Below, one piece after another: positions 16,808-57,504 of a DNA stretch of 64,000 nt. Numbering within the stretch: position 1 is the first letter of the stretch; each line of letters starts with the position of its first letter. Under the pieces are notes generated by a model. That model was not told the origin of the DNA and searched no databases. It saw only the letters and a program-made list of their open reading frames with translations. The stretch lies in contig CAINCU010000040.1 in assembly GCA_903847155.1 (NCBI GenBank), positions 1-64,000 on the forward strand. The letters are read 5' to 3'. A program made the translations under genes and the position numbers. The DNA is from an uncultured Gallionellaceae bacterium. GTDB lineage: Bacteria > Pseudomonadota > Gammaproteobacteria > Burkholderiales > Gallionellaceae.

Positions 16808-16809
16808 AT

Positions 16810-17325
16810 TCAATTTCCTTTCACGATAAGTGGCATTCCTGCCACGGTCAAAATCACACGTTCACATAACGCACCCAGTTGCTGGTGCAGACGTCCCACC
16901 TCGTCGCAATAACGCCGCGACAATTCGCCCAGCGGGACGATGCCCATATTTGTTTCATTGCTCACTAAAATAATTTCCCCCGGCAAGGTGGGCAGCACGC
17001 TCAACAAGGCGTCCACTTCGCTGCGCAATTCGGCTTCGCTGAGATCGCACAGCAATTGCGTGAGCCACAATGTCAGACAATCCACCAGTACACAGCGTCC
17101 GGCTTCGGCCTGTTGTTGCAACACCTGCGCCAGGTTGTGCCCGGCTTCGACCACCTGCCAATGTGCAGGACGGTGCGCCTGATGATGGGCGACGCGCTGT
17201 TGCATTTCCGCATCGCGCACCTGCGCGGTCGCCACGTACACTACATCCAGACCGGAATCCTTGGCATGCTGTTCTGCCAAACGACTTTTGCCGGAACGTG
17301 CACCACCCAGAATCAATTCACGCAT
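16810..17325 (-). CDS. cobU: Adenosylcobinamide kinase / guanylyltransferase CobU
   Basis: This 171-residue bifunctional enzyme phosphorylates adenosylcobinamide and attaches GMP. It has the P-loop [13 protein letters not shown] at the N-terminus, the [10 protein letters not shown] block carrying the guanylylated His, [13 protein letters not shown] and [10 protein letters not shown]. It overlaps the end of cobQ by 13 bases. Its GDP-cobinamide product feeds CobS. Confidence 0.95.
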
Positions 17326-18821
17326 TGCAGCTCTCCCAATTCGAATAGTTCGCGCAACTTCGCAGTATCCAGACAGCTTTCAACCGTATCCGCCAGCCGT
17401 TCCAGATCAGCCTCGCAACGCGCCCGATAGTCAGTTGTCTGCACATTGCGCAACCCCGCCCAGCGCAGCAACGCGCTGCACGCCTCAGGCGATTCAAACA
17501 AGCCATGCAGATAGGTGGCGAGGATTTGCCCGTCAGCCGAGATGGCGCCATCCGCACCGTGTTCCAGTTGCAGTGCAGGATTGTTCAATGCCGCGCCACT
17601 GGAAATTCCTGCATGAATTTCGTATCCGGACACGGGTGCGTTTTCCAGCAACAAAGTGCCGCGCACATTGCGCAACTGCTTTTCCGCAGCAAGCGTTGTT
17701 TCCAGTTCCAGCAAGCCCAGCCCCGCGCTGCTGCCGACTTCGCCTTCAATCCCAAGCGGATCATGGACATGCTGACCCAACATTTGCAGGCCACCGCAAA
17801 TACCGATGAGCTTGCCGCCGTAGCGCAAATGTTGCTTGATCGCCCTATCCCAACCGGCTGCACGCAAACTGGCCAGGTCGCTGCGCACGGATTTGCTGCC
17901 GGGCAGGATGATCAGGTCGGCGGGAGGCAATGGCTCGCTGATCGGTACGAATTTGAATTCGATTTGCGGATGTAAGCGCAGCGGGTCGAAATCGGTGTGG
18001 TTGCTGATGTGGGGCAGGACGGAGACGACGATGCGCAGCTTGTACTCGCCCGCTTCTACCCTCTCCCTAACCCTTTCCCTGCAAGGGAGAGGGGATAATG
18101 AAGGCACTGCGTCTTCCGCTTCCAGATGCAGACCGTGCAGATACGGCAACACGCCAAGCACTGGTTTGCCCGTGTACTGCTCAAGCCAATCCAGCCCTGG
18201 CTGCAGCAAGGCAAGGTCGCCGCGAAAACGGTTGATGACGAAGCCGACCACACGCGCCTGCTCGCTCTCGCTCACCAGCGCCAGTGTACCGACCAGATGC
18301 GCGAACACTCCGCCACGGTCGATGTCGGCAATCAGGATCACCGGGCAATCCACCGCTTCGGCAAAACCCATGTTCGCGATGTCGCCCTCGCGCAAATTGA
18401 TTTCGGCGGGGCTGCCCGCCCCTTCCACCACCACGACCTGATACTGTGCAGACAAGCGCGCGTGCGACTGCATCACCGCCGCGCGCGCCGTGCTTTTGTA
18501 GTGGTGATATTCCAGCGCCTCCATGTTGCCGATGGCGCGACCGTGAATGATGACCTGGGCACCCGTATCGCTATTGGGTTTGAGCAAGACCGGATTCATG
18601 TCGGTGTGCGGTGCAAGGCGTGCGGCTTGCGCCTGCACCGCTTGCGCGCGCCCGATCTCGCCACCGTCGGAAGTCACGGCGCTGTTCAGTGCCATGTTCT
18701 GCGGCTTGAACGGTGCGACCTGCACGTCCTGCCGCACCAGCCAGCGGCACAATGCCGCAACCAGCGTACTCTTGCCCGCGTCGGAGGTGGTACCCTGGAT
18801 CATCACGGTACGCGCGGTCAT
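17313..18821 (-). CDS. cobQ: Cobyric acid synthase CobQ, with REP-derived insertion
   Basis: The 502-residue enzyme amidates adenosylcobyrinate a,c-diamide to cobyric acid with glutamine. It has [32 protein letters not shown], and a class I glutamine amidotransferase domain with ICGGLQMLG (Cys nucleophile) and ATYLHGLFE (His). The ATG at 18821 overlaps the cobD stop (ATGA). Between the two domains, residues near 240-260 ([15 protein letters not shown]) are encoded by a REP-like palindrome, which looks like an in-frame insertion in the linker. Function is probably retained. Confidence 0.93.
18059..18094. repeat. REP-like palindrome inside cobQ
   Basis: CCCTCTCCC and GGGAGAGGG form the ends of a hairpin with a TAACCCTTTCCCTGCAA-type interior. 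It matches the repeats at 14995-15116 in motif and GC content. It keeps the cobQ frame open and encodes an extra linker segment. Confidence 0.6.
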
Positions 18822-19801
18822 CGCAGGCACCTGCGTAACGCTTCAGCCAGACGTACCCACTGCGCCTCTTCGCCCGGCAGGCCGAAACGCACACTGTGCG
18901 GCGCACTGTACAGCCGCGTCAGAACGCCCTGTTGTGCAAGCTGTTCATGTACGCGCACGGCATCCGCGCAGCACACCCATTGAAACAGAGTGCAGCCGCC
19001 ACTCGGTGTCAAGTTCGAGCTTTGCAGCAAATCTGCAAGGCGTTGAGCTGCCAGCGGCAATCTCTCGCGTGTTGCACGTTGCCACGCCGTATCGCGCAAC
19101 GCCAGTGCCGCCGCATAACGCGACGGGGCAGCAACCGGCCATGGACCGAGCAACTCGGCAAGTGGCCGCAACACAGCGGGTTCGGCCAGCACAAAGCCAA
19201 CCCGTGCACCGGCCAGACCGAAAAATTTTCCCAGCGAGCGCAGCACGATCAGCCCCGGACGCGGACAGCGGGACGCGAGACTGTGTTCAGGCGTGGCATC
19301 CATGAATGCTTCGTCCACCACAAGCCAGCCACCGCGCGCCGCCAACTGCGCGTGCAAACTCAACAACTCATCGATACCGAAAAGTTTGCCGGAGGGATTG
19401 TTCGGGTTGACAATGACCACGACCTGCGCATTCGTGCCGGTCTGCAATATCTCTGCCGCAGACACGCTGCTGACCTGGTGACCATGACGTTGCCAGGCAT
19501 GCGCATGCTCTGCATAACTCGGTGCGACAAGCGCCACCTGCGTGGGCGGCCGCAACATCGGCAACGTCTGCAGGGCCGCTTGCGATCCGGACACGGCCAA
19601 TATTTCCATCGTGCCGTAATATTCTTTAGCCGCCGCATCCAGCCCGTCATCTTCTTGCGGCAAGCGTAACCAGACCTCGCCCGGAACGGCCGGAACCGGC
19701 CAGCCATGCGGATTGATGCCGGAAGACAAGTCCAGCCAGCTCGCCTCGTCTATGCCGTATCGTTGCGCGGCGCGACGCAATCTTCCGCCGTGCTCAAGCA
19801 T
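18818..19801 (-). CDS. cobD: L-threonine-O-3-phosphate decarboxylase CobD
   Basis: This 327-residue PLP enzyme of the class I/II aminotransferase fold makes (R)-1-amino-2-propanol phosphate, the linker of cobalamin. Visible blocks are [31 protein letters not shown] and [17 protein letters not shown], where the Lys binds PLP. The ATG lies 8 bases inside the 3' end of cbiB. Note that 'cobD' names a different gene (the cbiB function) in the Pseudomonas naming scheme. Confidence 0.92.
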
Positions 19802-20759
19802 AGTGTTGCCACCCCGCCATCAACAACGTGCCCAGCGTAATGACGACCAGCCATGCGTACAAGGTGTGGCGCACCAGTTGCACGGCTCGCGCGATGTCCG
19901 CAGCGCCGGCCGCCGCACCACAGCCCAGCAGCGGACGCTGACTTGATTCGCCGTGATAGATCGCGGCACCGCCGAGTTGCACACGCAACGCGCCCGCACC
20001 TGCCGCCATCACCGGGCCGGCATTCGGGCTTTCCCACGCTGGGGCCTGTTGCCGCCAACAACGCAGCGCACTGTGCGTGTGCCCAATAAGCGCATAGCTC
20101 AAGGCAGTCAGGCGCGCCGGAATGAAATTCAGCACATCGTCCAGCCGTGCGGCCGCCCAACCGAAGTAGTCATAGCGTGCGTTGCGGTAGCCCCACATTG
20201 CATCCAGCGTATTGCTCAGGCGGTACAGCACCACTCCCGGAGCACCGGCAACGACGAACCAGAACAGCGCGGCGAAGATCGCATCGTTTCCGTTCTCCAG
20301 CACAGATTCCACCGCGGCGCGCGCCACGCCTTCCTCATCCAGATGGCGGGTGTCGCGGCTGACCATCATGCCTACGGCCTGTCTCGCCGCAGGCAAATCG
20401 CCGACAGAAAAAGCTCTTGCGACGCGTTCGGCATGCTCGCGCAGGCTGCGCGGGGCGATGGCAAAATACAGCACCACAATGGAAAACAGCGTGCCAAAAA
20501 TCGCTGACTGTTGCAGCAGCGCCGCGAGTGCCACAAAGGGGATCAGTAACATGCATACCGCGGCAACGCCGCGCACATAGCGCGCGCCGGACGCGGCCTG
20601 CGCCGGGCCATAAAATATATTTTCGATCCGCCGTGCCAGCCAGCCAAAACCTGCCAGCGGATGAAAACGGCTCGGTTCGCCCAATAGACGATCGAGCAAC
20701 ACCGCCGCCAATAGCATCAGCGGTACGGACAAATTAGATAAATACTGCGCTATTTGCAT
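19794..20759 (-). CDS. cbiB: Adenosylcobinamide-phosphate synthase CbiB
   Basis: This 321-residue integral membrane protein attaches the aminopropanol linker to adenosylcobyric acid. Homology signs include the N-terminal [45 protein letters not shown] and the [21 protein letters not shown]-like block. The ATG at 20759 shares its first base with the bluB stop codon, so it is preferred over an upstream in-frame start. It works with CobD, encoded next. Confidence 0.92.
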
Positions 20760-21418
20760 CAGTCTTCCGCCCGGCATTCCCAGCTATTTTCAAACAACAT
20801 CTCGTGCAATGGTTGCGGCGTGCGCCACCGCTCCAGTTGCAGCATCGGGGCCGGGTAGAACTCTGCCACCTGCCCCAGACACAGGATCGCCACTGGTTTC
20901 CCGCCTGACGGGATACCCAGCAATGCAGCAAGTGCTACAGGGTCAAACAGCGATACCCAGCCCATACCCAAGCCCTCCGCGCGTGCCGCCAGCCACATGT
21001 TCTGAATCGCACAGGCGACTGATGCCATGTCCATTTCCGGCAGCGTGCGCCGTCCGAAAATATGCGCCTCGCGCTGATCCATCAGCGCCGCGACCCATAA
21101 TTCCGCACAGTCGCGTATCCCCTCGACTTTCAAGCGCAGGAATTCAGCATTGCGTTCGCCCAGCGCCTGTGCCGTCAAAAGGCGCTCGCTCTCCACCAGC
21201 GCGTGAATTTGCGTGCGCAATGTGCTGTCACTGATGCGAATGAAGCGCCAGGGTTGCATCATCCCGACACTGGGTGCCTGATGCGCCGCTTGTAATACAC
21301 GCTGCAAAACTTCTGCGGGAACAGGATCGTTGAGAAAATGACGCATGTCGCGCCGTTCTGCAATCACGCGGTACACCGCTGCGCGGTCGGTGTCGGAATA
21401 TTGATGTGGAGAGCTCAT
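20759..21418 (-). CDS. bluB: 5,6-dimethylbenzimidazole synthase BluB
   Basis: This 219-residue nitroreductase-fold enzyme breaks down FMN with oxygen to give dimethylbenzimidazole, the lower ligand of B12. It has [30 protein letters not shown] and [12 protein letters not shown], as in BluB. The ATG at 21418 ([12 protein letters not shown]) overlaps the cobB stop codon (ATGA). An aerobic route to the lower ligand is implied. Confidence 0.92.
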
Positions 21419-22710
21419 GGTAGAAATAGTTGCGCCACCGCGTGCGGGTTGGACGGAAAATATAAATGGATGTACGAGGCGGTAAGACGCTTCTGTTGAT
21501 ACACTGCTTCGCTGCTGGCGCCGCCATTCGGGCATACCCCGCGCGCACTGGGCGCGAGACGGCTTTCCAGTTTTGAGTAGTGGAACGTATGACCGCGCAG
21601 TGTGCCTTGCGGCAGTATCACGCTCTGCAGCGCCAGTGCGCTCAGGCGCGGCTGCATCTTCGCTTCGCCCTCGATCAAGCCGAGAAGACTCTCCGATTTT
21701 TCTTGTGCATCAGTGAGCGTTTGCAGCGTATACAACATACCGCCGCATTCGGCGAGTATTGGCTTGCCTGCAGCGTGGTGCGCACGGATGGCGGACAGCA
21801 TGGCTGTGTTGCTCGCCAATTTTGATAAATGCAATTCAGGATAGCCGCCGGGCAGATACAGGCTATCTGCCTCCGGTAACACTTGGTCATCAAGCGGCGA
21901 AAAAAAGCTCAGTTGTGCGCCCAGCGCGCTCAATACATCAAGGTTGGCCTGGTACAAAAACGAAAATGCGGGATCGCGTGCGACGGCAATTTTCACTCCC
22001 AGCAACTCGTGTGCCATAGCAGCAGATTCGGCCGGAGCAAAAGCGACGGCAGGAGGCAACCCGGTATGCGCGTTTTCAGCCCACAGATTTGCGGCATGAT
22101 CGATGCGCTGCTGGATATCGGGCAGTTCTGTCGCTTGCAACAGGCCCAAGTGCCGTTCAGGCAAATTGATTTCCGCTGCGCGCGGAAGCGCACCGCAAAA
22201 CTTTATGCTGGTAGGCAAATGCTCGGTGAGCATCTCGGCATGACGTGTACCGGCGACACGATTCGCCACCACACCGAAAAACGGCAAAGACGCATCCAGC
22301 TGCGACAGGCCGAAAGCCAGGGCGGCGAAAGTCTGCGCCATCGCGCTGGCGTCGATCACGGCCAGCACTGGGATGCCGAATTGTTTGGCGAGATCGGCGC
22401 TGGACAGTTTACCGTCGAACAACCCCATCACTCCTTCGACCAGGATCAGATCCGCTTCGCCAGCCGCCTGATACAACTGCGCGCGGCAGTCGGGTTCGCC
22501 GCCCATCCATAAATCGAGTTGATACACGGGATGGCCGGAAGCCTGCTCCAGAATGGTGGGGTCGATAAAATCCGGCCCGGTCTTGAACACCCGCACGCGC
22601 CGCCCCTGGCTGCGGTGATAGGCAGCGAGCGCGGCGGTGACGGTGGTTTTCCCCTGCCCGGAGGCGGGTGCGCTGATGAGCACGGCGGGACAATGGCGCA
22701 CGGACGTCAT
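21415..22710 (-). CDS. cobB: Cobyrinate a,c-diamide synthase CobB/CbiA
   Basis: This 431-residue glutamine-dependent amidase has an N-terminal ATP-binding domain (ISAPASGQGKTTVT, VFKTGPDFIDP, LVEGVMGLFDG). Its C-terminal glutamine amidotransferase domain has LPGGYPELHLSKL, AECGGMLYTL with the catalytic Cys, and a final ASYIHLYF. The ATG at 22710 overlaps the btuR stop codon (ATGA). The operon has no early corrin-ring methyltransferases, so the substrate must come from elsewhere in the genome or from salvage. Confidence 0.93.
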   Translation of the reverse strand: MTSVRHCPAVLISAPASGQGKTTVTAALAAYHRSQGRRVRVFKTGPDFIDPTILEQASGHPVYQLDLWMGGEPDCRAQLYQAAGEADLILVEGVMGLFDGKLSSADLAKQFGIPVLAVIDASAMAQTFAALAFGLSQLDASLPFFGVVANRVAGTRHAEMLTEHLPTSIKFCGALPRAAEINLPERHLGLLQATELPDIQQRIDHAANLWAENAHTGLPPAVAFAPAESAAMAHELLGVKIAVARDPAFSFLYQANLDVLSALGAQLSFFSPLDDQVLPEADSLYLPGGYPELHLSKLASNTAMLSAIRAHHAAGKPILAECGGMLYTLQTLTDAQEKSESLLGLIEGEAKMQPRLSALALQSVILPQGTLRGHTFHYSKLESRLAPSARGVCPNGGASSEAVYQQKRLTASYIHLYFPSNPHAVAQLFLP

Positions 22711-23306
22711 AAATCTATGCCGGGTTGTGCGCGCACGCCGCTGCGGAAGGCGTGTTTGACGTCCTGAATTTCGCTCACCGTGTCGGCCATTTCCAGCAGA
22801 CATTCGGGTGCAGCGCGCCCCGTAATCGCCACATGTTGCATCGGTGGCCGCGCCGCCAGGTCGGCACAAACTTGTTGTGCATCGAGATAGCCGTATTTCA
22901 GCAGATACGTCAGTTCATCCAGCACCACCAGGTGCAGCGATGCGTCGCGCAAGAAACCTTGCGCGACCGCCCACGCGCGTTGTGCGGTGGCAATGTCCGC
23001 CTCGCGGTTTTGCGTATCCCAGGTAAAACCGTCGCCCAGTACTTGCCATTGCACGCCGGGTTGTTGGCCGAAGAATTTTTCTTCACCGGTATCGCGGCGG
23101 CTCTTGATGAATTGCACCACGCCCGCTTTCAGCCCATAGCCCAAGGTGCGCGCCACCATGCCAAATGCGGAACTGGATTTGCCCTTGCCGTTGCCCGTCA
23201 ATAGCAGCAGCAAACCCTTATCCAGGTCGGCTCCGGCAATGGCCGCATCGACCACCGCCTTCTTGCGCGTCATGCGCTGCCGGTGTTGTGTACTGTTATC
23301 CGGCAA
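22707..23306 (-). CDS. btuR: Cob(I)alamin adenosyltransferase BtuR/CobO
   Basis: The 199-residue ATP:corrinoid adenosyltransferase has RMTRKKAVVDAAIA, the P-loop TGNGKGKSSSAFG, GVVQFIKS and the VLDELTYLLKYGYLD block. It adds the upper adenosyl ligand. A TTG at 23306 is used because the region before MTRKK matches homologues, but an ATG at 23273 is possible and no strong ribosome-binding site decides it. It begins three bases after btuM. Confidence 0.92.
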   Translation of the reverse strand: MPDNSTQHRQRMTRKKAVVDAAIAGADLDKGLLLLLTGNGKGKSSSAFGMVARTLGYGLKAGVVQFIKSRRDTGEEKFFGQQPGVQWQVLGDGFTWDTQNREADIATAQRAWAVAQGFLRDASLHLVVLDELTYLLKYGYLDAQQVCADLAARPPMQHVAITGRAAPECLLEMADTVSEIQDVKHAFRSGVRAQPGIDL

Positions 23307-23309
23307 GAT

Positions 23310-23879
23310 TTATTGCGCCGCAGAACGTTGCGTGTTGGCGCGGTGCGTAAACACCACATACAACAAGACCGCAGGAACCAGGTACACCGCGGCACCGCTC
23401 ACATACGGCACATAGTATTGCGCAACGCGATGTGCATATTCAGCCATGTTCACGTCGGCGAAGCGGCCGGAAAACAGATAGAACGAACCGTTTGAAATCA
23501 TGAAAGCCACGCTGGTTGCCGCGAAGGAAATTCCGGCAAAAATACCCAGGCTGCGCAAACTGTGCTGGTGAATGCGTGCGTAGGAACGGCCTGCAAACCA
23601 CAGCACGGCGTAGGTCGGAATCAGGAACCAGTAGGCCGGGGTAATGCAATAATCGCTCACGCCAAAATGAGTAATGGCGAGGTAATCAAGTGCGCCGGCG
23701 CCGAGCAGCAATGCACCAAAGAACAACCGGCTCGCGACAAAGAATCCCGCCAGCAGGAACACCGCCAGCGAAGCATCGGGCAAGTGCAGCGATGTACCGA
23801 AATGATGCATGCGCGTGCCTGCCATCAGCGCGAACAAACCCAATGCGATGAATATTTGACGTTGCGATAATTGTTTCAT
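23310..23879 (-). CDS. btuM: BtuM-type solitary vitamin B12 transporter
   Basis: This 189-residue protein has about six membrane segments and a DYCITPAYWFL motif with Cys78. Family knowledge: Thiobacillus denitrificans BtuM is a solitary ECF-type S-component for B12. Its conserved Cys80 coordinates the cobalt and supports decyanation. The match in length, Cys position and location between btuB and btuR under a B12 riboswitch supports the call. It would move B12 or cobinamide across the inner membrane after BtuB import. No ECF ATPase genes are nearby. Confidence 0.8.
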   Translation of the reverse strand: MKQLSQRQIFIALGLFALMAGTRMHHFGTSLHLPDASLAVFLLAGFFVASRLFFGALLLGAGALDYLAITHFGVSDYCITPAYWFLIPTYAVLWFAGRSYARIHQHSLRSLGIFAGISFAATSVAFMISNGSFYLFSGRFADVNMAEYAHRVAQYYVPYVSGAAVYLVPAVLLYVVFTHRANTQRSAAQ

Positions 23880-23958
23880 GTTGTACTCCTTTAGTTGGGA
23901 TGATTTAAAAAATGAGTCGGGTCAGCACATTCGTTCATGACCCAACCCGCTACTACTG

Positions 23959-25767
23959 CTACCTGGGCTGGTAATTCAGCGTCAGATATACCGAGCGTCG
24001 TGCCTGGTTAAAGTACTGGGCGGTTTCGTATTGCTTGTCCAGCAGGTTATCAAGCCGCCCTTGCACCAGCCACACCTTGTTCACGCGATATTCGGCGCGC
24101 ACATCGAGCAATCCATAGCCCCCCATTTGTTTGCCGGGGCTGTTGGCGAGATCGTCATAACGGCGTCCTTCCCCGTACAGCGAACTCGCCACACGCACCT
24201 CGCCGAATTGACGGGCAATTTCCACGCGCATGGCTTCCCTGGCACGGCGATTCAGCAATTTGCCGCTGTTGGCGCCCGACGTTTGACGCGGATCCTGCCA
24301 CGTCAGCGTGGTGGCAACATCCCAGTCTGACAACTGCGTCTTCATCTGGCCTTCTACGCCAGTCAGCCGCGCGGTATTGATGTTGACCGGATTGAATGCT
24401 GCGTCAAAACCGATCAAGTCGGTAATGTCGGTTTGATACGCATTCACGGACCATTTGCCCGATTCAACACGACCAGCCAAACCAAGCTCGACACTGCGTG
24501 ACAACTCCGGCCGCAAAGTGGCCAAACCAAATCCGGGGTAATACAACTGGTTGAATGTCGGCGCCTTGAATGCCGTTCCGTAGGACGCGGTCAAACGCGT
24601 GCTGTCACTCAGCGCATAGCCGTAACCCAGTCCGGATGTGATGTGCACGCCGAATTGCTGGTTGTTATCGCGGCGTGCACTGGCTTGAACACTGCTCCTG
24701 CCAAAGACACCCTGATACTGGCCGAATACGGCGTTATTGCTGCGTGAGCTTTTGGTGTAAAGCGTTGTGCTATCCACTCGGTCATTTTGATAATCCATTC
24801 CTGCCGTGAAAATATCATCCGCATTTAACGCAAAGTCATTCTGCCAGGTCAGTGTGTCGCGCTGCGTGTTGAAGCGGGATTTGAATACGCCATTCAGAAA
24901 ATTATTCAAATAATCCTGTGAACTCCCGGCACGCAAGGTTGTATTCCAGGCCTGCATAGGCGCAAATTTCAGCGATCCGCCCAGCACCTGCTGTACCCCC
25001 TTGGACTCATTGGGGTTTCCGTCATACTGATTTTTGCTATTGGCACGCAGGGCATGAGCATCGGCGATCACGCCATTCTCGAAACTGTAACCCCCGTTCA
25101 AACCGAGCGACGAATTATGATAGCCGTCTTTATCCAAGTCGGCTCCCGTGGCGTTGCTCTTTGCGTTAAAGCCCCCGGTGTTTTGCTGGTTGAGCTTGAA
25201 ATTGAGCCACCCCTGCTTGCCGCCGCCGCTCAAACCCAGCGCGGTGTTGTAAGTGCCATAGCTGCCCGCTGTGAAGCTGGCAGACGGAGTCGGCGTGCCA
25301 CAACTCTTGCGCGTAAAAATCTGAATCACGCCGCCGATGGCTTCCGAACCGTACAGACTGGCGCGCGGACCGCGCACTATTTCAATGCGCTCAATTTGCT
25401 CAACCGGGATATCCTGGAACGAGGCTGTGCCCAAAGTTGCCGACCCGATCTTGATGCCGTCCACCAGCACCAGCACGTGGTCGGCATTCGTGCCGCGCAT
25501 AAACACCGAATTCGACTTGCCTGCACCGCCGTTGTTGCTGATCGTCAAACCCGCCACGCCGCGCAATACATCGGGCAAGGATTGCGCTTGCAACCGATCA
25601 ATATCCTCGCGTGTAATGACAGTAACGGACGCCAACGATGCATCCGCCGCTTGCGCAGTGCGTGTGGCAGTGACTACCACTTCGCCAAGACTTTCGTGTG
25701 CTGCGGCATGACCGATAGAAGGTGCCGCACATAAAGCGGCGGCAAAAATTATACTTTTGATTTGCAT
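23959..25767 (-). CDS. btuB: TonB-dependent vitamin B12 receptor BtuB
   Basis: The 602-residue outer membrane receptor has a signal peptide (to about residue 22), a TonB-box-like EVVVTATRT and a plug domain (LPDVLRGVAGLTI, VFMRGTNADHVLVLVDGIKIG, IEIVRGPRASLYGSEAIGGVI). A beta-barrel follows, ending in a hydrophobic strand. The gene is the first of the B12 operon and lies downstream of the cobalamin riboswitch. It imports cobalamins from outside. Confidence 0.93.
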   Translation of the reverse strand: MQIKSIIFAAALCAAPSIGHAAAHESLGEVVVTATRTAQAADASLASVTVITREDIDRLQAQSLPDVLRGVAGLTISNNGGAGKSNSVFMRGTNADHVLVLVDGIKIGSATLGTASFQDIPVEQIERIEIVRGPRASLYGSEAIGGVIQIFTRKSCGTPTPSASFTAGSYGTYNTALGLSGGGKQGWLNFKLNQQNTGGFNAKSNATGADLDKDGYHNSSLGLNGGYSFENGVIADAHALRANSKNQYDGNPNESKGVQQVLGGSLKFAPMQAWNTTLRAGSSQDYLNNFLNGVFKSRFNTQRDTLTWQNDFALNADDIFTAGMDYQNDRVDSTTLYTKSSRSNNAVFGQYQGVFGRSSVQASARRDNNQQFGVHITSGLGYGYALSDSTRLTASYGTAFKAPTFNQLYYPGFGLATLRPELSRSVELGLAGRVESGKWSVNAYQTDITDLIGFDAAFNPVNINTARLTGVEGQMKTQLSDWDVATTLTWQDPRQTSGANSGKLLNRRAREAMRVEIARQFGEVRVASSLYGEGRRYDDLANSPGKQMGGYGLLDVRAEYRVNKVWLVQGRLDNLLDKQYETAQYFNQARRSVYLTLNYQPR

Positions 25768-26291: not shown

Positions 26292-28472
26292 TCACAAAGA
26301 TGCGCCTTGATAGCCCGAAGGCTGCCACTGTTTCGATGGCTCAGTTGCCGCATGCCCTCCGGACTGCTCCAGGTCCCGCACAATCTCCCCTTGCTCCAGC
26401 ACCACCACCCTCTGTGCCATGGCAATCGTTTCAGGGCGATGGGCAATAACTATGCGCGTGAGATCAAGCTGGGCGATGGCAACATTGACCGCCTGCTCGT
26501 TCCATATGTCGAGATGACTGGTCGCTTCGTCGAGCACCAATAGTTTGGGCTCCTTGTAGAGCGCCCGGGCCAGCAAAACACGCTGCTTCTGGCCGCCGGA
26601 AAGCCCAGTACCGATATCGCCGATCAGTGTGTTGTAGCCCATTGGCATCGCCGCGATCTCGCGATCCAGCACCGCCGCGTGAGCACAAGCAGCGATCCGC
26701 TCTTGGTCGGGCGCTAGATCGAAGAAGCTGATGTTGTCGGCGATCGATCCCGAGAACAACTGGTCATCCTGCATCACCGCGCCGGCGATGCGGCGGAAGT
26801 TTTCTCGGCCGAGCTGTTCGAGATTGGTTCCGGCAACGCGAATGGAGCCTTCGGTGGGTTCGAGCAAGCCGAGCAGAAGTTTCACCAGCGTCGTCTTACC
26901 AGACCCGGAAATGCCCGTGACGGCAATAAATTGCCCGGCGGGGATTTCGAGGTTGCAATTCTTCAGAACCCACGGCTCGCCATCAGCGTAACGAAAGGAA
27001 AGTCCCGTGATCTTGATGTGTGGCTCCACGGTCGCCAGATCGATTTCCGGGAGTGCATCATGCCGTTCCGGTTCTGTAAGAACGATATCGGCCACGCGCT
27101 CGCCATGCAGACGCAGCATACGCAGTTCAAACAACCGATCGATCAGCGACGCCATCCGTTGGCTGAACTGATCCTTGTAGGCCAGGAAGGCGAACAGCAT
27201 CCCTACAGAGAACTTGCCGTCGATCACCGCCAGCGCGGCCAGCCAGATCACCACGACGCGTTCAAGGCCGAAGATCAACGTGTTGGCCATCTGGTACGAA
27301 ATCGTGATGCGCGCGATGCGCAACTCGGCGTTGAATTGTTCAACCAGGCGATTCGACCACCCAGCATGTCGTTCCGGCCCCCTGCCGAACAAGCGGACAC
27401 TTTGGATGCCGCGTACCGATTCCAGAAAATGGGTTTGTTGCTTGGCGGCATGGACGATCTGTTCCGAATTGGCGTCCCGCAACGGGCGGAAGATCACCCA
27501 GCGCAGTAGGCCATAGAGTATCACCGTGATTATGGCAATGACGCTCAATTTCACGCTGTACAAGACCATTAGGACGAAGGTTGCCAGCACCAGCAGGCCA
27601 TCGATCAATCCCTCCACCAATTGGATGGTCAGGCTGCGCTGGATAGTCTGAATGGACCCAAACCGAGAGACGATGTCGCCCAAATGCCGTTTTTCGAAGA
27701 ACGGAAACGGCAAGCGGAGCAAGTGGGCGAAGGCATTGCCCAGCCACTGGAAGTTGAATTGGGTCGTCAGTACCGTACTCACCCAAGCCCGCGTGATGGT
27801 GACGGCCGCTTGTACCAGCACCAGCACCAGAAACCCAAAGCCGAGCACGGTAATCAAATCTCGGTCGGAGGACACCAATGCCTCGTCGACGATCCACTGC
27901 AAATAGAACGGCGCCACCAGCGCGCAGAGTTGCAAAGCGATACCCAGCAGCAGCAATTGCACCAGTCCGCGGCGCAGCCCCGTCACTTTGCCCATCAATT
28001 CGAAAAGCTTGATCTGGCGGGTCTCGCGCTGCGGCCGGAAATCGGTACCGGGGGTGAGTTCCAAGGCAACGCCGGTGAAGTGCTCCGCCACGTCCTTCAT
28101 GGCAACCCGGCGTTCGCCGATGGCCGGGTCGTGAATGACCACCCAATTGGCAGTAACCTCATGCAGGACGACAAAATGGTTCATGTCCCAGTGCAGCACG
28201 CAAGGCAGCTTCAAATCGGAAAGGTGCTGCAAATCCAGCTTCAGCGGACGGGCGTGGAGCCCAAGCGCCTGGGCGACGGCGATCAGTCCCTTGAGCGAGG
28301 TGCCTTTCAGCGAAACGGAAAAGCGCTGGCGCATTGCCGGCAGGTCGATCTCGTGACCATGAAAGCTCGCCACCATTGCGACGCAGGCTAGGCCGCATTC
28401 GGCTGCTTCGGTCTGTAGCATCACGGGCATGCGTGGCCCGGTGAAGAACGACAACAGTGGAGAATTGCTCAT
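26292..28472 (-). CDS. C39 peptidase-containing ABC exporter (RiPP leader protease/transporter)
   Basis: The 726-residue protein has an N-terminal C39 peptidase domain with QTEAAECGLAC (Cys26), MNHFVVL (His99) and IHDPA (Asp115). A six-helix membrane domain follows, then an ABC ATPase with GISGSGKTT, LSGGQKQR and VLDEATSHLD. Such transporters cut precursors after a double glycine and export the product. The neighbouring precursor has a VAGGGG site that fits. The ATG at 28472 overlaps the stop of the HlyD gene (ATGA). All three catalytic residues are present. Confidence 0.92.
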   Translation of the reverse strand: MSNSPLLSFFTGPRMPVMLQTEAAECGLACVAMVASFHGHEIDLPAMRQRFSVSLKGTSLKGLIAVAQALGLHARPLKLDLQHLSDLKLPCVLHWDMNHFVVLHEVTANWVVIHDPAIGERRVAMKDVAEHFTGVALELTPGTDFRPQRETRQIKLFELMGKVTGLRRGLVQLLLLGIALQLCALVAPFYLQWIVDEALVSSDRDLITVLGFGFLVLVLVQAAVTITRAWVSTVLTTQFNFQWLGNAFAHLLRLPFPFFEKRHLGDIVSRFGSIQTIQRSLTIQLVEGLIDGLLVLATFVLMVLYSVKLSVIAIITVILYGLLRWVIFRPLRDANSEQIVHAAKQQTHFLESVRGIQSVRLFGRGPERHAGWSNRLVEQFNAELRIARITISYQMANTLIFGLERVVVIWLAALAVIDGKFSVGMLFAFLAYKDQFSQRMASLIDRLFELRMLRLHGERVADIVLTEPERHDALPEIDLATVEPHIKITGLSFRYADGEPWVLKNCNLEIPAGQFIAVTGISGSGKTTLVKLLLGLLEPTEGSIRVAGTNLEQLGRENFRRIAGAVMQDDQLFSGSIADNISFFDLAPDQERIAACAHAAVLDREIAAMPMGYNTLIGDIGTGLSGGQKQRVLLARALYKEPKLLVLDEATSHLDIWNEQAVNVAIAQLDLTRIVIAHRPETIAMAQRVVVLEQGEIVRDLEQSGGHAATEPSKQWQPSGYQGASL

Positions 28473-29758
28473 AGCTTGCCCGATATACTGAACAGCGGTT
28501 CCAGCACCCATTCGTAGAGTTTGCGCTCTTCGAGAAAAATGCTCGCATCCAGGGCCATGCCCGGCCGCAGGGACTGTTCGATTCCATAAGCCAGGACGCT
28601 CGGATGCTCAAGCGTGACGCGCACCCGATACAACGGCTCAACGTTCGTCAAGCCGCCCTGAACGAGCGAAGAGATTTCGTCGGCGCGTAGCGCCGTGCGC
28701 GAAACTTCTCGAATGCGCCCGCTGTGCTGACCGAACTTCTGATAAGGAAACGCTTGGTAGCGGATTAATACCGGCAATCCCAGCTTGAGAAAACCGACCG
28801 ACCGCGAAGGCACATAGAGTTCCGCTTCAAGCGTGGCGCTCTGCGGCACCAGACTGGCGAGCAGTTGGTTGGCGGCGACGGTCTGCCCAGGTTCGGCGGA
28901 AATCGCCGCCACTTGGCCCGGCTGCGGCGCGCGCACAACGATGCGCCGCCTGGCCTCGTTCTCGGCAAGATCCTGCTCGATGCTGGCGATGTTGCGTTGC
29001 AAAGCCAATTCGTCGCGTTTGGCCTGCTTTTGCTGGTCTTGTAGTTCGGCCTGGGCGGTGGCGAGGTCGCGTTCGACGGCCGCTTTCGCGCGTTCCAGAT
29101 CGTACACCCGCTGCTGCTGGTCGATGAGATCGGCGGTCTTGTCCTGAAGTTGCGCTATGGAAATGAAGTTCACGTCGGCGAGTTCCTTGTACCGCTTCAG
29201 TGCTTGCTGGGCCAGGTCGACGCGCCGTTCCTGAAGAATGATCTGGCCGGCGATACGGTCGGTCTCCGTCCCCAGATCCTTGGCTCGGTTCGCTGTGGCG
29301 GCGGTGCGCTGTCGTGCTTGCATGGAGGCCAGCCCGCGTTCCGTCTCTAGGTTCTCACGGCGTGATTCCAACATGGTGCTGATGGTACCTTCAGTTTCGC
29401 CGCGCGTTGCGCTGGTGCGTTCGCTCGACAGCACGAACAGCACATCGCCGGTCACAACGGTTTGTCCTTCTTCGACGCGTCGCTCGATGATGGTTCCGGC
29501 TTGGCCGGAAACTACTCGGGAGATGCCGGTGCTGGGCACGATCATGCCCACCACCTGCGCCTTGCGGGCGTAGCCAAACAACGTGAAGAAAACGACAATA
29601 CCAACGGTAATTCCAACGAAGAGGAAGGTCAAAACTGAAAACGAAACCGGGCGTGCCAGCAGAATCTCGCCGTGCAGCTTGTGGCGCGCACTGTCGAGTG
29701 CTTGCTGGCGGAAAAGGGGAGTTCGGGAGGGAATGTCGGGTGTCGGGTGATCTGGCAT
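28469..29758 (-). CDS. HlyD-family periplasmic adaptor
   Basis: The 429-residue protein has one N-terminal membrane segment (about residues 35-55), a lipoyl-like VSGQAGTIIERRVEEGQTV, a long coiled coil (residues 110-270) and a second beta-barrel/lipoyl half with RAPQPGQVAAISAEPGQTV. It would connect the C39 ABC exporter to an outer membrane channel, which is not encoded here. It resembles the adaptors of bacteriocin (CvaA-type) exporters. The start at MPDHPTPDIP is preferred over an upstream start. Confidence 0.85.
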   Translation of the reverse strand: MPDHPTPDIPSRTPLFRQQALDSARHKLHGEILLARPVSFSVLTFLFVGITVGIVVFFTLFGYARKAQVVGMIVPSTGISRVVSGQAGTIIERRVEEGQTVVTGDVLFVLSSERTSATRGETEGTISTMLESRRENLETERGLASMQARQRTAATANRAKDLGTETDRIAGQIILQERRVDLAQQALKRYKELADVNFISIAQLQDKTADLIDQQQRVYDLERAKAAVERDLATAQAELQDQQKQAKRDELALQRNIASIEQDLAENEARRRIVVRAPQPGQVAAISAEPGQTVAANQLLASLVPQSATLEAELYVPSRSVGFLKLGLPVLIRYQAFPYQKFGQHSGRIREVSRTALRADEISSLVQGGLTNVEPLYRVRVTLEHPSVLAYGIEQSLRPGMALDASIFLEERKLYEWVLEPLFSISGKL

Positions 29759-29810
29759 GCGGCTAAACGATACAAACAAAAGATTGTGGCGAAGTCATAT
29801 TGGCACCTAT

Positions 29811-31241
29811 TTATCGACTTGTCTCATAACAGTGCTGATACTGAGCCGATAGCTGCAAATGACGCTCTATTGCCACCTTTGCTAACCAATTGGCACCTTC
29901 CCCCTGATCTTTTGCCTTATCTAAATCATCTCGAACAAATTTCGATGAAAATCCATTATTGTTTGCATAGAGAACATCGTCTTGTCTTCTATAGTTGCGG
30001 TAAGCCGCGTTCACTAATGAACTGTCATGATATCCCCTGCACCAGGCTATTGCCTCTTTCAACGAAAGACTAGGTAATATCCATTCGCACGAATTCCAGA
30101 TATCAATATTCCGCCCAGCAATAATACTATAGTCTTCGTGTTGCGCAAGCGGGGAGGATGCAACAACATAATATGGTTCAACCGATATTTGATCGGAGAA
30201 CATACGTAAGGAATCCAGAAGCCTCTCAATGGAAGCAATGCTATCCCCAGGAAGTCCAATATGGATTGTCACCATTAAATACGCCACCGGACCCATTGAC
30301 TCGCGAAGCCGTGCAACAAGAGCTTGAATATCAAACTGCGTATAACCCAACACGGCGCGACCTTTTGGCGTTGCTCCGTATAAGCAAACATTTAATGAGC
30401 CAATTCTGTGCTCTTTAATGAATGCCCAAAATTCTTTTAAGTGAGCAAGTCTAAGGAAGTCGGAATTTAGGTGTAACTCTATTTCGCCATTTGGCGCGAC
30501 TCTATGCATCATATTTGATAACAGGTGGAATTTCGTCTCCGATATCTTTAGTGAGTCGCTAGTAAGTGTCAAATTGAATGGTTGCGGTTTTAAGTTTAAT
30601 TCTCTTTCTAGTTCTTTAATATTAGAAGCCAAATTTGTAGCTTTAATTCTCTTGTACGGCAAGCACGTAGTTGGCTCTCTTGAACAATTTATGCAGTGCC
30701 CGTGGCACTCAGGCATGTCGATCATCATATTGGCAGAGCGCCATAAGTAGCCATTGGCCGGAACATATTTGACAGACTTCCTTCCTCCATAATCGAATTT
30801 TGGAGACGAGATGTTAAACACAGTCGCCATTTCCAATAACGAATCATATCCCCGCCTGAATATGGCCGAGGCTTGATTAAACGCATCGTCTATAAATAAC
30901 TCATCAGGTAACAACCCCATGATGCAATACTTAATGTTAGGGTACCCCTGTCGCAAACTGGTCATTTTGTCGTTAATGATTCGCGCCCACGGGAGTGGGA
31001 TACCGTCTGGGATATCTCTCCATGCCCCCGCTAGATATATCCCAGCCCATACAGTGCGCCCTCGATATTTACGGACCAAATACTCAACAAGAATGCTATC
31101 GGGTATTTGTATGAACGTATCATGTATGGCGGCGTCCACTGAAAAATGTTGCAGTGCCGTTTTTGCGGCATAGACCCCAGGTATCGGCCAGAAACGGGAA
31201 TCCGGACGTTCAGAGAAAATCTCGATAGAATAAGTGGCCAT
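29811..31241 (-). CDS. Radical SAM enzyme, possibly cobalamin-dependent, of RiPP cluster
   Basis: This 476-residue protein carries the CHGHCINC motif (Cys179, 183, 186), the CxxxCxxC binding site for the radical SAM [4Fe-4S] cluster. About 175 residues precede it, the size of a B12-binding domain, and LYGATPKGRAVLGYT..TIHIGLPGDS fits the partial TIM barrel of B12-radical SAM proteins. In polytheonamide-type pathways such enzymes C-methylate valines and other residues. The B12 domain is inferred from size and layout, not from a clear DxHxxG motif. The ATG at 31241 was chosen over a TTG. Confidence 0.6.
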   Translation of the reverse strand: MATYSIEIFSERPDSRFWPIPGVYAAKTALQHFSVDAAIHDTFIQIPDSILVEYLVRKYRGRTVWAGIYLAGAWRDIPDGIPLPWARIINDKMTSLRQGYPNIKYCIMGLLPDELFIDDAFNQASAIFRRGYDSLLEMATVFNISSPKFDYGGRKSVKYVPANGYLWRSANMMIDMPECHGHCINCSREPTTCLPYKRIKATNLASNIKELERELNLKPQPFNLTLTSDSLKISETKFHLLSNMMHRVAPNGEIELHLNSDFLRLAHLKEFWAFIKEHRIGSLNVCLYGATPKGRAVLGYTQFDIQALVARLRESMGPVAYLMVTIHIGLPGDSIASIERLLDSLRMFSDQISVEPYYVVASSPLAQHEDYSIIAGRNIDIWNSCEWILPSLSLKEAIAWCRGYHDSSLVNAAYRNYRRQDDVLYANNNGFSSKFVRDDLDKAKDQGEGANWLAKVAIERHLQLSAQYQHCYETSR

Positions 31242-31476
31242 TTCAAGTATCCGCAATTAGCGATTGTCTTTACAGGACTCGACGGTTGTTAAGAGCGTAG
31301 CGGGCTAAGCTAAACAAGCATTTTGTCAAGATAGCGACAGCGTCGCACTGGCTGCGCGTTTTCCACTGATACCCACGGAGCCAGTGGGAAACCCTTTAAT
31401 GTCGCCCACCTGACACTGTCTCCAGCTCATCCCCATCCGCTTCTTTTCTAAATAGCGTCAGTGTGAAGCAGCTTCT

Positions 31477-32838
31477 TCAATTTCCCTTCTCCAGATTTTC
31501 CCGACAAGACTGAGTCATGCTGGAAAGATCGATATCTCCCATCCAGGAAACAAGCCTAATAGGGATTAGGCCGGTAATAAAAAAAACCGCTGCACAAAGG
31601 AACGGCAGCCGATAGTAAAACTGAAAAAGACACGCCTTTGAGAATTCGTCGTTCTCCAAATATAAACAGCCTCCGCGGCAAAATGCGAGGACAGGGCATT
31701 TTATGCAATTGTCACGTGAGCGCCAGTGCCATACTGTATTCAGTACTGGACCAGGAAGGTCGCTTACGTGACCAAGCAAATGCCTTCCGACAGGAAGTGT
31801 ATTTTGGCAGGTAACAATGTTTTGCGTATTCAGATTAACTACGACAGCATCTGGTCTATCCAAGCCACATTTATGTCCAATACAAACGGCTGGCTTACTG
31901 GTTTGAAGCATCGAAAAAAAGTCCTGTATTTCCTCCCCAAACGCGAAGAGGCTCTTCCCGGCAATTAGTTCCTCAAAAACGATAGAAAGATCGGCCAAGC
32001 TAGGGGCAACAACATTCTGATTTGCCGGCGTCGCGAGCCCCTCCGTTAATAAAACAATATTTATATAAGACGTGCTTAATCGTCGAGCTAAATAATGGCG
32101 AATATCTACGATGGACAAATTGTCGGACGTCAAAACGCAGTTAAAGCGTAATGATCTCCTGCTCTCAAGCAATCGGTGAAACAGTTCGTGAACATAATGA
32201 TTATTGAGTACATCATCAGTTCTATGCCGACCGGGTCCATCATGGCTTATAGTAACGTCAACCCGATCATGAGTCAGAATCCAATCCGCGATTTGCTTGT
32301 TTATCAAAGACCCGTTTGTAACGGTACCAACTCTGGCCTGGGGATAAATGTCCAAAAGGCTTTCAGCTAAAGGCTTGAAATCCGACCAATAAACAAATGG
32401 CTCGCCCCCCCATAACTCAAATCTAATTTCTTGCGCAGGATTTAGCCATGATCTTAGCCCGGCAACAAAGCCAGCGACATTTTCCCGGTTTGCGTTTTTC
32501 CTAACCGGAACCATCGATGAAGAAGAGTGATCACGTCCGTCTTGCTGCGCACAGTAACCACATTGAAAGTTGCATTTCAATCCCAGCTGAATCTTAACTA
32601 ATTGGAATGGCCCGTGTTTATGGCCCGGACTACTCGGAGTAATAGTAAACTGTCGCTGATGCTCCCACGGTTGCTGCGTTTTCTGGTATTTTCTACCGAC
32701 TCGATCAAGTGATAATAAACCGCCCGACGACCACTTCATAATATTCGATTGCACGTCATAATGAACGGATTTAATATCGCCTCGAGAATCCACTAAATCA
32801 ATTACAACCGGATTAGCGGTTTCGGTAGCATTGTCCAT
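31477..32838 (-). CDS. SPASM-domain radical SAM peptide maturase
   Basis: This 453-residue protein has CNFQCGYC (Cys89, 93, 96) for the SAM cluster. Its Cys-rich C-terminal part (CIGHKCGLD, VTCQNT, NCIKCPVLAFCRGGCLY) is typical of SPASM domains that bind auxiliary Fe-S clusters. GGEPFVYW and TNGSLIN match radical SAM core blocks. SPASM enzymes modify ribosomal peptides by cross-linking, epimerisation or thioether formation; which one applies here cannot be read. The ATG shares one base with the stop of the precursor gene, so translation is coupled. Confidence 0.85.
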   Translation of the reverse strand: MDNATETANPVVIDLVDSRGDIKSVHYDVQSNIMKWSSGGLLSLDRVGRKYQKTQQPWEHQRQFTITPSSPGHKHGPFQLVKIQLGLKCNFQCGYCAQQDGRDHSSSSMVPVRKNANRENVAGFVAGLRSWLNPAQEIRFELWGGEPFVYWSDFKPLAESLLDIYPQARVGTVTNGSLINKQIADWILTHDRVDVTISHDGPGRHRTDDVLNNHYVHELFHRLLESRRSLRFNCVLTSDNLSIVDIRHYLARRLSTSYINIVLLTEGLATPANQNVVAPSLADLSIVFEELIAGKSLFAFGEEIQDFFSMLQTSKPAVCIGHKCGLDRPDAVVVNLNTQNIVTCQNTLPVGRHLLGHVSDLPGPVLNTVWHWRSRDNCIKCPVLAFCRGGCLYLENDEFSKACLFQFYYRLPFLCAAVFFITGLIPIRLVSWMGDIDLSSMTQSCRENLEKGN

Positions 32839-33779
32839 TAGCCGGAAAGCTCCGCTACGGACATTTTCCCACAAAGATCAGCGCCATCAACGCTAACACC
32901 ACTCTCGACGACATAGCTGTTTGCAATAAAACTTTGGTTGCCGTCCAACAAAAAACTATGCAGTGTTTCAGGTTCCGACACAACCCTGTAAGTCAATGAA
33001 GAGACGGTACCTATCCCATCAGCCAGATAAATCTTATCCCCTAATTCCATCTGACGGAATTGCCTGTCTTCCAATCCAAATTCCGGATTCAATTTGCGCT
33101 TCCAGGTTCGATAGGCACGATATCCCTCCAAATCCACTGCAAGCCACAGTCCATCTTCGCAAAGGAATAGCTGCTCCCATGTGCACTCAATTTGTGAGTT
33201 CAATTGGTAGATCTTGTCCCCCGGCTGAACAACACAAGTAACTAGTTCCGACACCCGATTACTACCGCCGAGTGCTGCTAATTCGGTTCCCACGGGAATT
33301 AGTTCGATCGGGACGATTGCTCCATCAGCACGCTTTACTCTGGTATGCTTGGGGAAGCAGCAAAAGCCTCCGCCTGAACCAGCAACTAAAACTAGCACAC
33401 CAGCGGCCACGACGACGACGACACCCGCCACTACTGCAGAATAAACGGTCACGGCAGCCGCAGCATTAACGGAAGCCAAAACATTAATGTTAATCGTCAG
33501 GGTACCACCCCCGCCGGCAACCTGTTCAAGCGTATCGTCGTCTAGTGGAATCTCAATCAAATTAGAGGCTCCATCCCTGCAGAATGTAACCCCTGGATTA
33601 TTTTCTTCTTGTAGCGCTCTTGCTAAATTGGCCTGAACGCTGTCCTCACTTAACTGTGCACCACACTCTCTGTTTGCAAAGTCAACTAAGCCTGCCACAC
33701 TAAAATTCGACTTCAATGAGTCTATGAAAGCCTGTTCCTTACCCACTGGAATAACAAAATCATCGATATCATGTTTCAT
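32838..33779 (-). CDS. Proteusin-like RiPP precursor fused to a Hint (hedgehog/intein) domain
   Basis: The 313-residue protein shows three parts. Residues 1-92 are a leader rich in charged helices ending IEIPLDDDTLEQVAGG, a double-glycine site as in proteusin/NHLP leaders. Residues 93-138 are a very hydrophobic V/A/G/N core (TININV, NAAAAV, VVVVVAAGVLVLVAG). Residues 139-294 resemble a Hint domain: CFPKHTRVKRADGAIVPIEL (Cys141 as nucleophile) and a terminal HSFLLDGNQSFIANSYVVES block. The usual TxxH His is Gln (T200-W-E-Q203), and the C-terminal His-Asn is missing. AAGGAAAATTTT precedes the ATG. The core could alternatively be a membrane anchor. Confidence 0.7.
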   Translation of the reverse strand: MKHDIDDFVIPVGKEQAFIDSLKSNFSVAGLVDFANRECGAQLSEDSVQANLARALQEENNPGVTFCRDGASNLIEIPLDDDTLEQVAGGGGTLTININVLASVNAAAAVTVYSAVVAGVVVVVAAGVLVLVAGSGGGFCCFPKHTRVKRADGAIVPIELIPVGTELAALGGSNRVSELVTCVVQPGDKIYQLNSQIECTWEQLFLCEDGLWLAVDLEGYRAYRTWKRKLNPEFGLEDRQFRQMELGDKIYLADGIGTVSSLTYRVVSEPETLHSFLLDGNQSFIANSYVVESGVSVDGADLCGKMSVAELSG

Positions 33780-33825: not shown

Positions 33826-35277
33826 TCACAATGCATACCCAATAAACCCCCTGTGCCATAACGAGTCGATTAATCCTATAACCTTAAAAGCGTTTTCCTC
33901 GGTGGAACGTAGTTTTTGAACAATCTCAACCGGAGTATGGCCCCCTTCACTGAGCAATTGAATCAGGCGCCTTGCCTGTGTAAAGTCGGCCCTTGCATTC
34001 CGACTCACCAAGTAAAACTTACCGTTCTCCTCGACGCAAGAAAGACCCTGATCCAATCTAATCGGAACCGCTGGATTTATTGTTATCGGCATATGCTTGG
34101 CAACAATATCCAACATTACTTGACCGAGATCAGTGTGATTTTTATATCCCATTTCCGCGTGGATAACAAAACCATCTTTCCATTTCACGGAAGGTTGACA
34201 TGGACTAATTAGTTGTACAGTTTTGGTCACAATATTGACCAAAAAGCCGGTTACACAAGCAATAGTTGCCGCCTGAAGATTCTGCTGACGCTTTTTGCTG
34301 TGGGAGGGCGCCGAGACTGCATCCGAGAATGCTTTTCCAGCCGCTGATTTGAATTCCTGACTTGCTCCAGAATTTTGCAACACCAATTCCACGCCCAATA
34401 GCTCTTCATCTGTAAAAGTATTGTGAATTTGCTTAAGCTGTGAGTTGCTCAATACGGAAAACCTAGTGGGAAAATCGCGGTTGATGCTAGCTAGACTCAG
34501 CACCTCCTTAGTGAGGCTAACGTTCCTAAGAGGTATAGCCGTTGTCGTCTGAGGGACTACCCCAGTGATTTCACGGTATATTCTCAAAAAGTCGATATAT
34601 TCCGGATTGTCAAGTGGATCTGTCGCCCAATATAGGAAGCCGCTGCTCATACCGGTGCCGACCACAGATTTTGCAGTATGAAGCAAAGACCGCCATTCAG
34701 CCTCTCCTCCACCTTTTAGTGAGAAATGGCCTCGAAATTTCTTGGCGGAAACTCCGCAAAACCAGCAACCTACGGAGCAACCATCGGAAAGTTCAAATGC
34801 TATTGGCGTATGAACTATTCCTAGGCTGGATAATCCCAACTCGAATTTAGTCCGCTGGATATTGCGTTGCCGCCAAGAGTCGAAGTTTTCATTAATGCCC
34901 GAAGAGCCGCCGGCTGCAACCAATTGTTTTCGGAACACATTGGCAGTAGAAACATATTTCATCCATAGATATGCAAGCGGCCACTTTTCCGATATGAAGC
35001 CATCGTCGGTAAATGGGGTTAGCAGAGATGGATTGAATACTGGTTCAAGGCATTTATACGTAGAGACATCGACATCCTGATCATTGTCGCGGCTGTGATC
35101 GGCGATCCCTTTATCGACCTTAAGCCTAAACTCCGGATCCCCCTGATATCTCTCAATAAACCGCTTGGCCTTGGCAAATAAACCTCGGTTACGGTCATCC
35201 AAAGAACGCATAAAGTGAGCGTACTCTCTGTCGGTTGCGCTGTGTTCTAACTGTTCTGTTGAATTGTGATTTTGCAA
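33826..35277 (-). CDS. PoyD-like radical SAM peptide epimerase
   Basis: This 483-residue protein contains FELSDGCSVGCWFCGVSA with CxxxCxxC at Cys167, 171 and 174. That stretch is characteristic of RiPP-maturing radical SAM epimerases (PoyD/OspD type) that convert L- to D-residues, often at alternate positions. The C-terminal part has a winged-helix-like segment near residues 440-480. It directly precedes the precursor gene. The TTG at 35277 is used because GAGGAT lies about 6 bases upstream; an ATG at codon 23 is possible. Epimerisation of the V/A/G core is inferred. Confidence 0.8.
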   Translation of the reverse strand: MQNHNSTEQLEHSATDREYAHFMRSLDDRNRGLFAKAKRFIERYQGDPEFRLKVDKGIADHSRDNDQDVDVSTYKCLEPVFNPSLLTPFTDDGFISEKWPLAYLWMKYVSTANVFRKQLVAAGGSSGINENFDSWRQRNIQRTKFELGLSSLGIVHTPIAFELSDGCSVGCWFCGVSAKKFRGHFSLKGGGEAEWRSLLHTAKSVVGTGMSSGFLYWATDPLDNPEYIDFLRIYREITGVVPQTTTAIPLRNVSLTKEVLSLASINRDFPTRFSVLSNSQLKQIHNTFTDEELLGVELVLQNSGASQEFKSAAGKAFSDAVSAPSHSKKRQQNLQAATIACVTGFLVNIVTKTVQLISPCQPSVKWKDGFVIHAEMGYKNHTDLGQVMLDIVAKHMPITINPAVPIRLDQGLSCVEENGKFYLVSRNARADFTQARRLIQLLSEGGHTPVEIVQKLRSTEENAFKVIGLIDSLWHRGFIGYAL

Positions 35278-57484: not shown

Positions 57485-57504
57485 GTTGAACGGTTAAAGT
57501 CTAC

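Follow-up and report, generated by a model that had tools for sequence, protein, structure and literature searches.

A 64,000-nucleotide stretch of DNA from an uncultured Gallionellaceae bacterium (GenBank assembly GCA_903847155.1, contig CAINCU010000040.1, positions 1 to 64,000; hereafter the window) carries a gene in which the probable precursor of a ribosomally synthesized and post-translationally modified peptide (RiPP) is fused to a hedgehog/intein (Hint) domain. The gene, P0001, is an intact open reading frame (ORF; 32838-33779, minus strand) of 313 residues that starts with ATG within an open frame of 317 codons. AGAAGGAAA lies directly 5′ of this start, and at the other end the sequence TAATG is shared between the stop codon and the ATG of the radical S-adenosylmethionine (SAM) gene that follows. 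The product has three parts. The leader (residues 1-90; 33510-33779, minus strand), recognized with a profile of PoyD-cluster leaders, ends at the double-glycine site EQVAGG, in agreement with an earlier sequence-only reading of the window that had it ending LEQVAGG (...DDDTLEQVAGG90 in the translation). The core (residues 91-140; 33360-33509, minus strand), delimited by translation and composition, ends GGGFC before the Hint Cys and has 50 residues up to Cys140, not the 46 of that reading. The remainder, residues 141-313, begins CFPKHTRV, with Cys141 at the position where the Hint-like domain had been said to start, and the bacterial intein-like (BIL) Hint domain itself covers residues 141-293 (32901-33359, minus strand) by profile, AlphaFold2 model and matches in the PDB. 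In all, 223 residues follow Gly90, one fewer than the 224 counted by a rough automatic call of the double glycine. The fusion proposed in the sequence-only reading is upheld by the intact frame, the profile match, the predicted fold and the neighboring maturase genes, and the whole looks like a RiPP precursor with its maturase genes adjoining.

Profile searching and structure prediction, two of the checks put forward in that reading, both point to a Hint fold in the precursor tail. A Hint profile built from viral-contig segments, with P0001 left out, matches residues 141-292 (E=1.6e-13, 50.1 bits). It holds the 60 distinct segments of more than 110 residues retained from 80 viral-contig loci; the second scan of the viral contigs was seeded by an alignment (A3) that included P0001, and confirmation was against another sequence. 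The AlphaFold2 model of the domain has a predicted local distance difference test score (pLDDT) of 86.8 and a predicted template modeling score (pTM) of 0.81, and it matches bacterial intein-like and hedgehog domains in the PDB. A full-length single-sequence prediction (pLDDT 34.7) was not used, and an alignment of mixed precursor and Hint rows (A6) that placed leaders on the Hint domain was discarded. Neither the Pfam and NCBIfam models nor a phmmer search of the PDB recognized the domain significantly, Pfam Hom_end_hint reaching E=0.12 and 12.8 bits, under its cut-off of 32.1; this is a problem of sensitivity, overcome by the viral-contig profile.

Leader class and relatives of the fusion

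The leader profile was built from 12 other PoyD-cluster precursors, P0001 excluded, and matches residues 2-90, exactly to the double glycine, with E=3.4e-6, although its 12 rows, from 11 loci, were taken from a list of ORFs ordered by their similarity to P0001 and are not an unbiased sample. The next-best ORF in the window reaches E=0.38. The label ‘proteusin’, given in the sequence-only reading, is not supported. At E up to 1, P0001 matches none of Pfam Nif11, TIGR03798 and the proteusin model TIGR03793, and when eight proteusin-type leaders of other PoyD loci were made into a profile, it reached only E=0.099, aligned over just 13 residues at the double glycine. At the same threshold, Pfam Nif11 matches 10 of the 13 aligned precursors, TIGR03798 nine and TIGR03793 five (weakly, the best at 0.0028). 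By sequence, the leader groups with the leaders of the nearest clusters described below and leans weakly toward Nif11.

The core that follows is V/A/G/N-rich and strongly hydrophobic (14 Val, 10 Ala and 8 Gly among its 50 residues), with Phe139 and Cys140 preceding Cys141. A V/A-rich stretch directly after the double glycine is also found in the three nearest clusters and in other PoyD loci. Applied to the PoyD loci, the leader profile picked out 51 ORFs, spread over 37 loci and including P0001 in two copies; a double-glycine-like site was found automatically in 42 of the other 49, with 15-108 residues following, and none was located in the remaining seven.

These loci come from a PoyD scan of a one-genome-per-species collection, in which the best 80 of 125 confirmed stretches make up 76 loci. 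By exporter identity, the nearest clusters are those of Kordiimonas (L007), Brevundimonas (L008) and Stakelama (L009), whose exporters are 41-46% identical to that of the window; no other long exporter match exceeds about 31% identity, and three shorter ones (L011, L025 and L063; 88 to about 217 residues) are at 35-48%. The three clusters resemble that of the window in their PoyD proteins (40-41% identical over the best segment), HlyD proteins (30-33%), related leaders and hydrophobic V/A cores, but their precursors have only 138-193 residues and no counterparts of its two extra radical-SAM proteins were found in the retrieved parts of their loci. The Kordiimonas precursor (L007 9386-9967) has a Gly-rich, acidic extension past its hydrophobic core, possibly a small follower. 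An S33-type alpha/beta hydrolase encoded in the window (12656-13663) is about 26% identical to hydrolases near the Kordiimonas and Stakelama PoyD clusters and is possibly a recurring companion.

No Hint ORF was found in any of the 76 other PoyD loci from the best 80 of 125 stretches, scanned for all ORFs of at least 50 residues, several of the loci stopping at contig ends. The Kordiimonas, Brevundimonas and Stakelama genomes likewise gave no Hint match at E 0.01. A further 49 plasmid records with a PoyD relative were found, outside this Hint scan, and a class-wide PoyD search was positive in 3 of 369 genomes, the bacterium's own included. Searches with the precursor across the family (158 genomes), the order (399) and the phylum (398) gave no second leader-core-Hint protein, the non-self matches being a Hint domain within a large protein (L002), a frame of low complexity (L003) and two weak hits containing stop codons (L083 and L084). 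Plasmids and viral contigs gave no match to the precursor; the Hint part alone found nothing in phages and six weak plasmid records, the best at E about 1. The Hint profile matched 16 of 299 genomes of the phylum, again including the own genome, where the precursor's Hint domain is the sole match, and no double-glycine leader was seen by eye in the 7 of 16 foreign Hint matches inspected, which include all five in frames of fewer than 450 residues. The search for other leader-core-Hint proteins that the sequence-only reading had called for therefore came back empty in the genomes, plasmids, phages and viral contigs covered, and the fusion is a singleton among the sequences searched. One unusual 215-residue protein of another genome (L173 1363-2010) joins a zinc-ribbon-like start and a poly-Gly linker to a Hint domain that ends HS, not HN.

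Altered catalytic residues and possible release of the core

We tentatively favor, at a little under an even chance, the view that a Hint follower releases the core in a slow or conditional reaction that depends on Cys141. The Hint domain would act as a large C-terminal follower behind the core of a PoyD-type precursor. Judging by their families, the neighboring radical-SAM enzymes would modify the V/A/G/N core, PoyD yielding D-residues, and the C39 exporter would cut after Gly90; PMC10885120 describes how C39 peptidases remove Nif11 and proteusin leaders at a double glycine. Slow or conditional N-terminal chemistry at Cys141, an N-S acyl shift and then hydrolysis or thiol attack, would free the C-terminus of the core. 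We infer such cleavage to be slightly more likely than a purely structural role for the follower.

The residues that speak for this chemistry are at the start of the domain and in block B. Cys141 (33357-33359, minus strand) is kept at the nucleophile position of the alignment, where 58 of 60 relatives have Cys and two a gap. Thr200 of block B is kept as well (Thr in 52 and Ser in seven of the 60), as are Phe142 (57/60) and Thr146 (53/60). The tail shares with BIL and hedgehog Hint domains the fold, the Cys at position 1 and the block-B Thr, and these features mark it as a member of the Hint superfamily. It differs from them in its attachment to a RiPP core and in having lost both the block-B His that is standard for Hint and BIL domains and the C-terminal His-Asn of inteins and A-type BILs (BIL types and Hint motifs are described in PMC7765530).

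These losses head the observations that weigh against release. Block B, T200-W-E-Q203 (33171-33182, minus strand), has Gln203 at the position occupied by His in 59 of the 60 relatives and by Asn in the other one. In block G (32901-32906, minus strand), the alignment shows Glu292-Ser293 instead of His-Asn, with His in 57 of 60 relatives at the position of Glu292; the terminal His and Asn columns of alignment A4, which correspond to E292 and S293, are each at least 90% conserved. The loss of the terminal Asn rests on A4, a second, scripted alignment not being clean at column 293, and the Hint segments had been trimmed at the His-Asn motif where present, which favors the C-terminal His-Asn in these counts but not the block-B His. 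Ser275 stands where 54 of 60 relatives have Asn. The Cys at −1 also occurs in 17 of 57 relatives, so the CC pair is no special compensation, and the bulk of this −1 residue, Cys140, is modest. Because the fusion is a singleton, conservation cannot tell whether the Hint domain works, and selection is not measurable. Finally, when the three nearest clusters are removed from the 12-leader profile, its match to the precursor drops to E=0.0067, a weak basis for assigning the leader; our estimate for the mechanism is unaffected by this, since it does not rest on leader class.

By established Hint chemistry, the absence of the block-B His should strongly weaken the N-S acyl shift, and Asn cyclization and splicing should fail because the block-G His-Asn is absent. 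Splicing by this domain is unlikely on the evidence of its residues, cleavage at its C-terminus would not be expected for the same lack of His-Asn, and at most slow N-terminal cleavage would remain. The sequence-only reading had proposed that follower removal is autocatalytic, which goes too far. Its footing in Cys141 survives, with Thr200 beside it; the block-B His and the C-terminal His-Asn are gone, which leaves N-terminal cleavage by a His-less route as the only possibility.

A comparable state has been engineered. Friedel et al. (PMC6333167) disabled an intein at the block-B His, the terminal Asn and the +1 residue, leaving N-terminal chemistry only. With Gly at −1, this triple mutant cleaved N-terminally to 1 and 1% (in the parent and M86, respectively). 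The figures increased with the bulk of the −1 residue, to 18 and 19% with 2-aminobutyric acid (Abu), 31 and 53% with Thr, 52 and 80% with Leu and 75 and 90% with Phe; they were 69 and 100% with D-Leu and 100 and 100% with D-Phe. By analogy, the natural state of the precursor's Hint domain resembles this triple mutant. The H73A/N154A/S+1A Ssp DnaB/M86 intein and the natural CDC21-1 inteins of that account are, like the precursor tail, Hint folds without the block-B His; the former is engineered and the latter are splicing inteins, and neither stands in a RiPP context as the tail does.

An epimerase beside a His-less Hint domain, taken with an intein of comparable triple loss that still cleaves, suggests a more specific possibility, epimerization-gated release, which we consider quite unlikely. 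The His-less Hint domain would stay idle until a PoyD-made D-configuration, or another modification, at Phe139 or Cys140 strained the scissile bond and triggered the N-S acyl shift; the resulting thioester would be hydrolyzed or passed to a nucleophile, and only fully modified peptide would be cut free. The modest bulk of Cys140 and the frequency of Cys at −1 among the relatives count against gating too, as does the finding, in PMC6333167, that D-Leu did not support full splicing in the single His mutant. If gating were true, it would be a built-in quality check joining radical-SAM modification to autocatalytic follower removal.

Substantial, though not leading, weight belongs to the explanation that the Hint domain has no catalytic activity and is retained as a folded follower, which solubilizes or shields the very hydrophobic core or holds it in place for the enzymes and is then exported fused or removed by an ordinary protease. 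The replacement of the block-B His, the block-G His-Asn and the Asn at 275, in a domain that keeps its fold-defining residues and is confidently modeled as a Hint fold, fits such a role. However, Cys141, at the canonical start, and Thr200 are the very residues left for N-terminal chemistry, inteins with comparable triple loss can still cleave N-terminally (PMC6333167), and, since no Hint domain was found with the PoyD precursors of the other loci examined, a follower of this kind is not a general requirement.

The same losses of catalytic residues would also be seen if a piece of a Hint gene had recently been joined by accidental recombination to the 3′ end of the precursor gene on a mobile element and were now decaying. 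The singleton status of the fusion (0 of 76 PoyD loci, and the sole Hint match in its genome) and the position of the cluster amid conjugation genes, with an integrase adjoining tRNA-His, agree with such an accident, yet the reading frame is unbroken, the domain retains many conserved structural positions across 150 residues and the precursor stop still overlaps the start of the next gene; we think this explanation unlikely. Very unlikely, in our estimate, is that the core is a mere membrane anchor and no RiPP, with the neighboring maturases acting on something else. In favor of this, the core is strongly hydrophobic and P0001 itself matches no curated leader model, but its leader is similar to those of PoyD-cluster precursors and carries the double-glycine site, PoyD adjoins it, the TAATG overlap ties it to the radical-SAM gene, and V/A-rich cores are common to many related clusters.

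Polytheonamide-type proteusins share the PoyD-type epimerase and the long V/A/G/N core with this system, but the leader here, unlike theirs, does not match the proteusin (NHLP) model, and to our knowledge proteusin precursors end at the core. Borosins combine a RiPP core and a catalytic domain in a single polypeptide. The fused burpitides of plants (PMC11253845) do likewise; the fused domains of both install cyclizations or methylations, whereas the target of a Hint domain would be the peptide backbone at its own N-terminus. The literature searched yielded no account of Hint or intein-like domains fused to RiPP precursors. If active, the Hint domain would give this RiPP its own means of backbone cleavage and leave a transient thioester at the C-terminus of a peptide that may be rich in D-residues, of use in preparing C-terminally modified peptides; an inactive one would offer a natural His-less, Asn-less Hint domain with which to test the fold without its usual chemistry.

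Operon and genomic setting

The precursor and its neighbors have a complete RiPP operon layout, transcribed in the order PH-domain protein, PoyD-type epimerase, precursor, SPASM-like radical SAM, divergent radical-SAM-like protein, HlyD adaptor and C39 exporter. As is expected of a PoyD-type cluster, the epimerase adjoins a precursor with a double-glycine leader and the operon includes an exporter with a C39 peptidase. At the head of the operon, all genes of which lie on the minus strand, is a bacterial PH-domain protein (35326-35820; bPH_4, 77.1 bits), which we take, by analogy with SunI, to be a candidate immunity protein. The PoyD-type radical-SAM RiPP epimerase follows (33826-35277; TIGR04517, 389.2 bits against a cut-off of 325). 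Downstream of the precursor is a radical-SAM enzyme with a SPASM-like C-terminus (31480-32838), matched by the NCBIfam PapB-type maturase model (E=4e-11), TIGR04085 (E=4.3e-5) and Pfam Radical_SAM (E=8.1e-5), all under the curated cut-offs; with the epimerase and the exporter it supports the reading of P0001 as a RiPP precursor. The divergent second radical-SAM-like protein (29811-31256) matches Pfam Radical_SAM under the cut-off (E=0.017) and has a CxxxCxxC motif by eye. Export would be by an HlyD-type adaptor (28469-29779; HlyD_3, 58.6 bits, over the cut-off) and a C39-peptidase ATP-binding cassette (ABC) exporter, or peptidase-containing ABC transporter (PCAT; 26292-28511), which is expected to cut after the double glycine. 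The latter matches Peptidase_C39 (124.3 bits) and ABC domains over their cut-offs, with TIGR03796 as its best NCBIfam model, under the cut-off.

The SPASM-type enzyme has no counterpart in the 76 PoyD loci (blastp, 1e-4); among 185 genomes of the phylum only the window itself matched it, and the viral contigs gave nothing. The divergent radical-SAM-like protein had no relative at 1e-10 among the other 184 of these 185 genomes, nor at 0.01 in plasmids.

The cluster lies amid conjugation genes, with TraC, TrbI-like and TraD-like genes at 44779-49856 and 4713-6536. A tyrosine-recombinase integrase at 56327-57698 has a frame that overlaps a tRNA-His gene, with tRNA-Arg and tRNA-Pro next in line. 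The conjugation genes and the integrase at tRNA-His suggest a conjugative island carrying the RiPP operon; no exact copy of at least 12 bases of 57341-57520, as would mark an att repeat, occurs elsewhere in the window, and the other end may lie outside it. The guanine-plus-cytosine (GC) content is 0.445-0.461 over 30-36 kb against 0.56-0.58 over 26-30 kb, where the exporter genes are, so the modification genes and the precursor may differ in origin from the exporter. Beside the operon, cobalamin-synthesis-like genes and a BtuB-like TonB receptor were recognized by eye (15755-25767), and a group II intron reverse transcriptase/maturase is encoded at 9213-10607.
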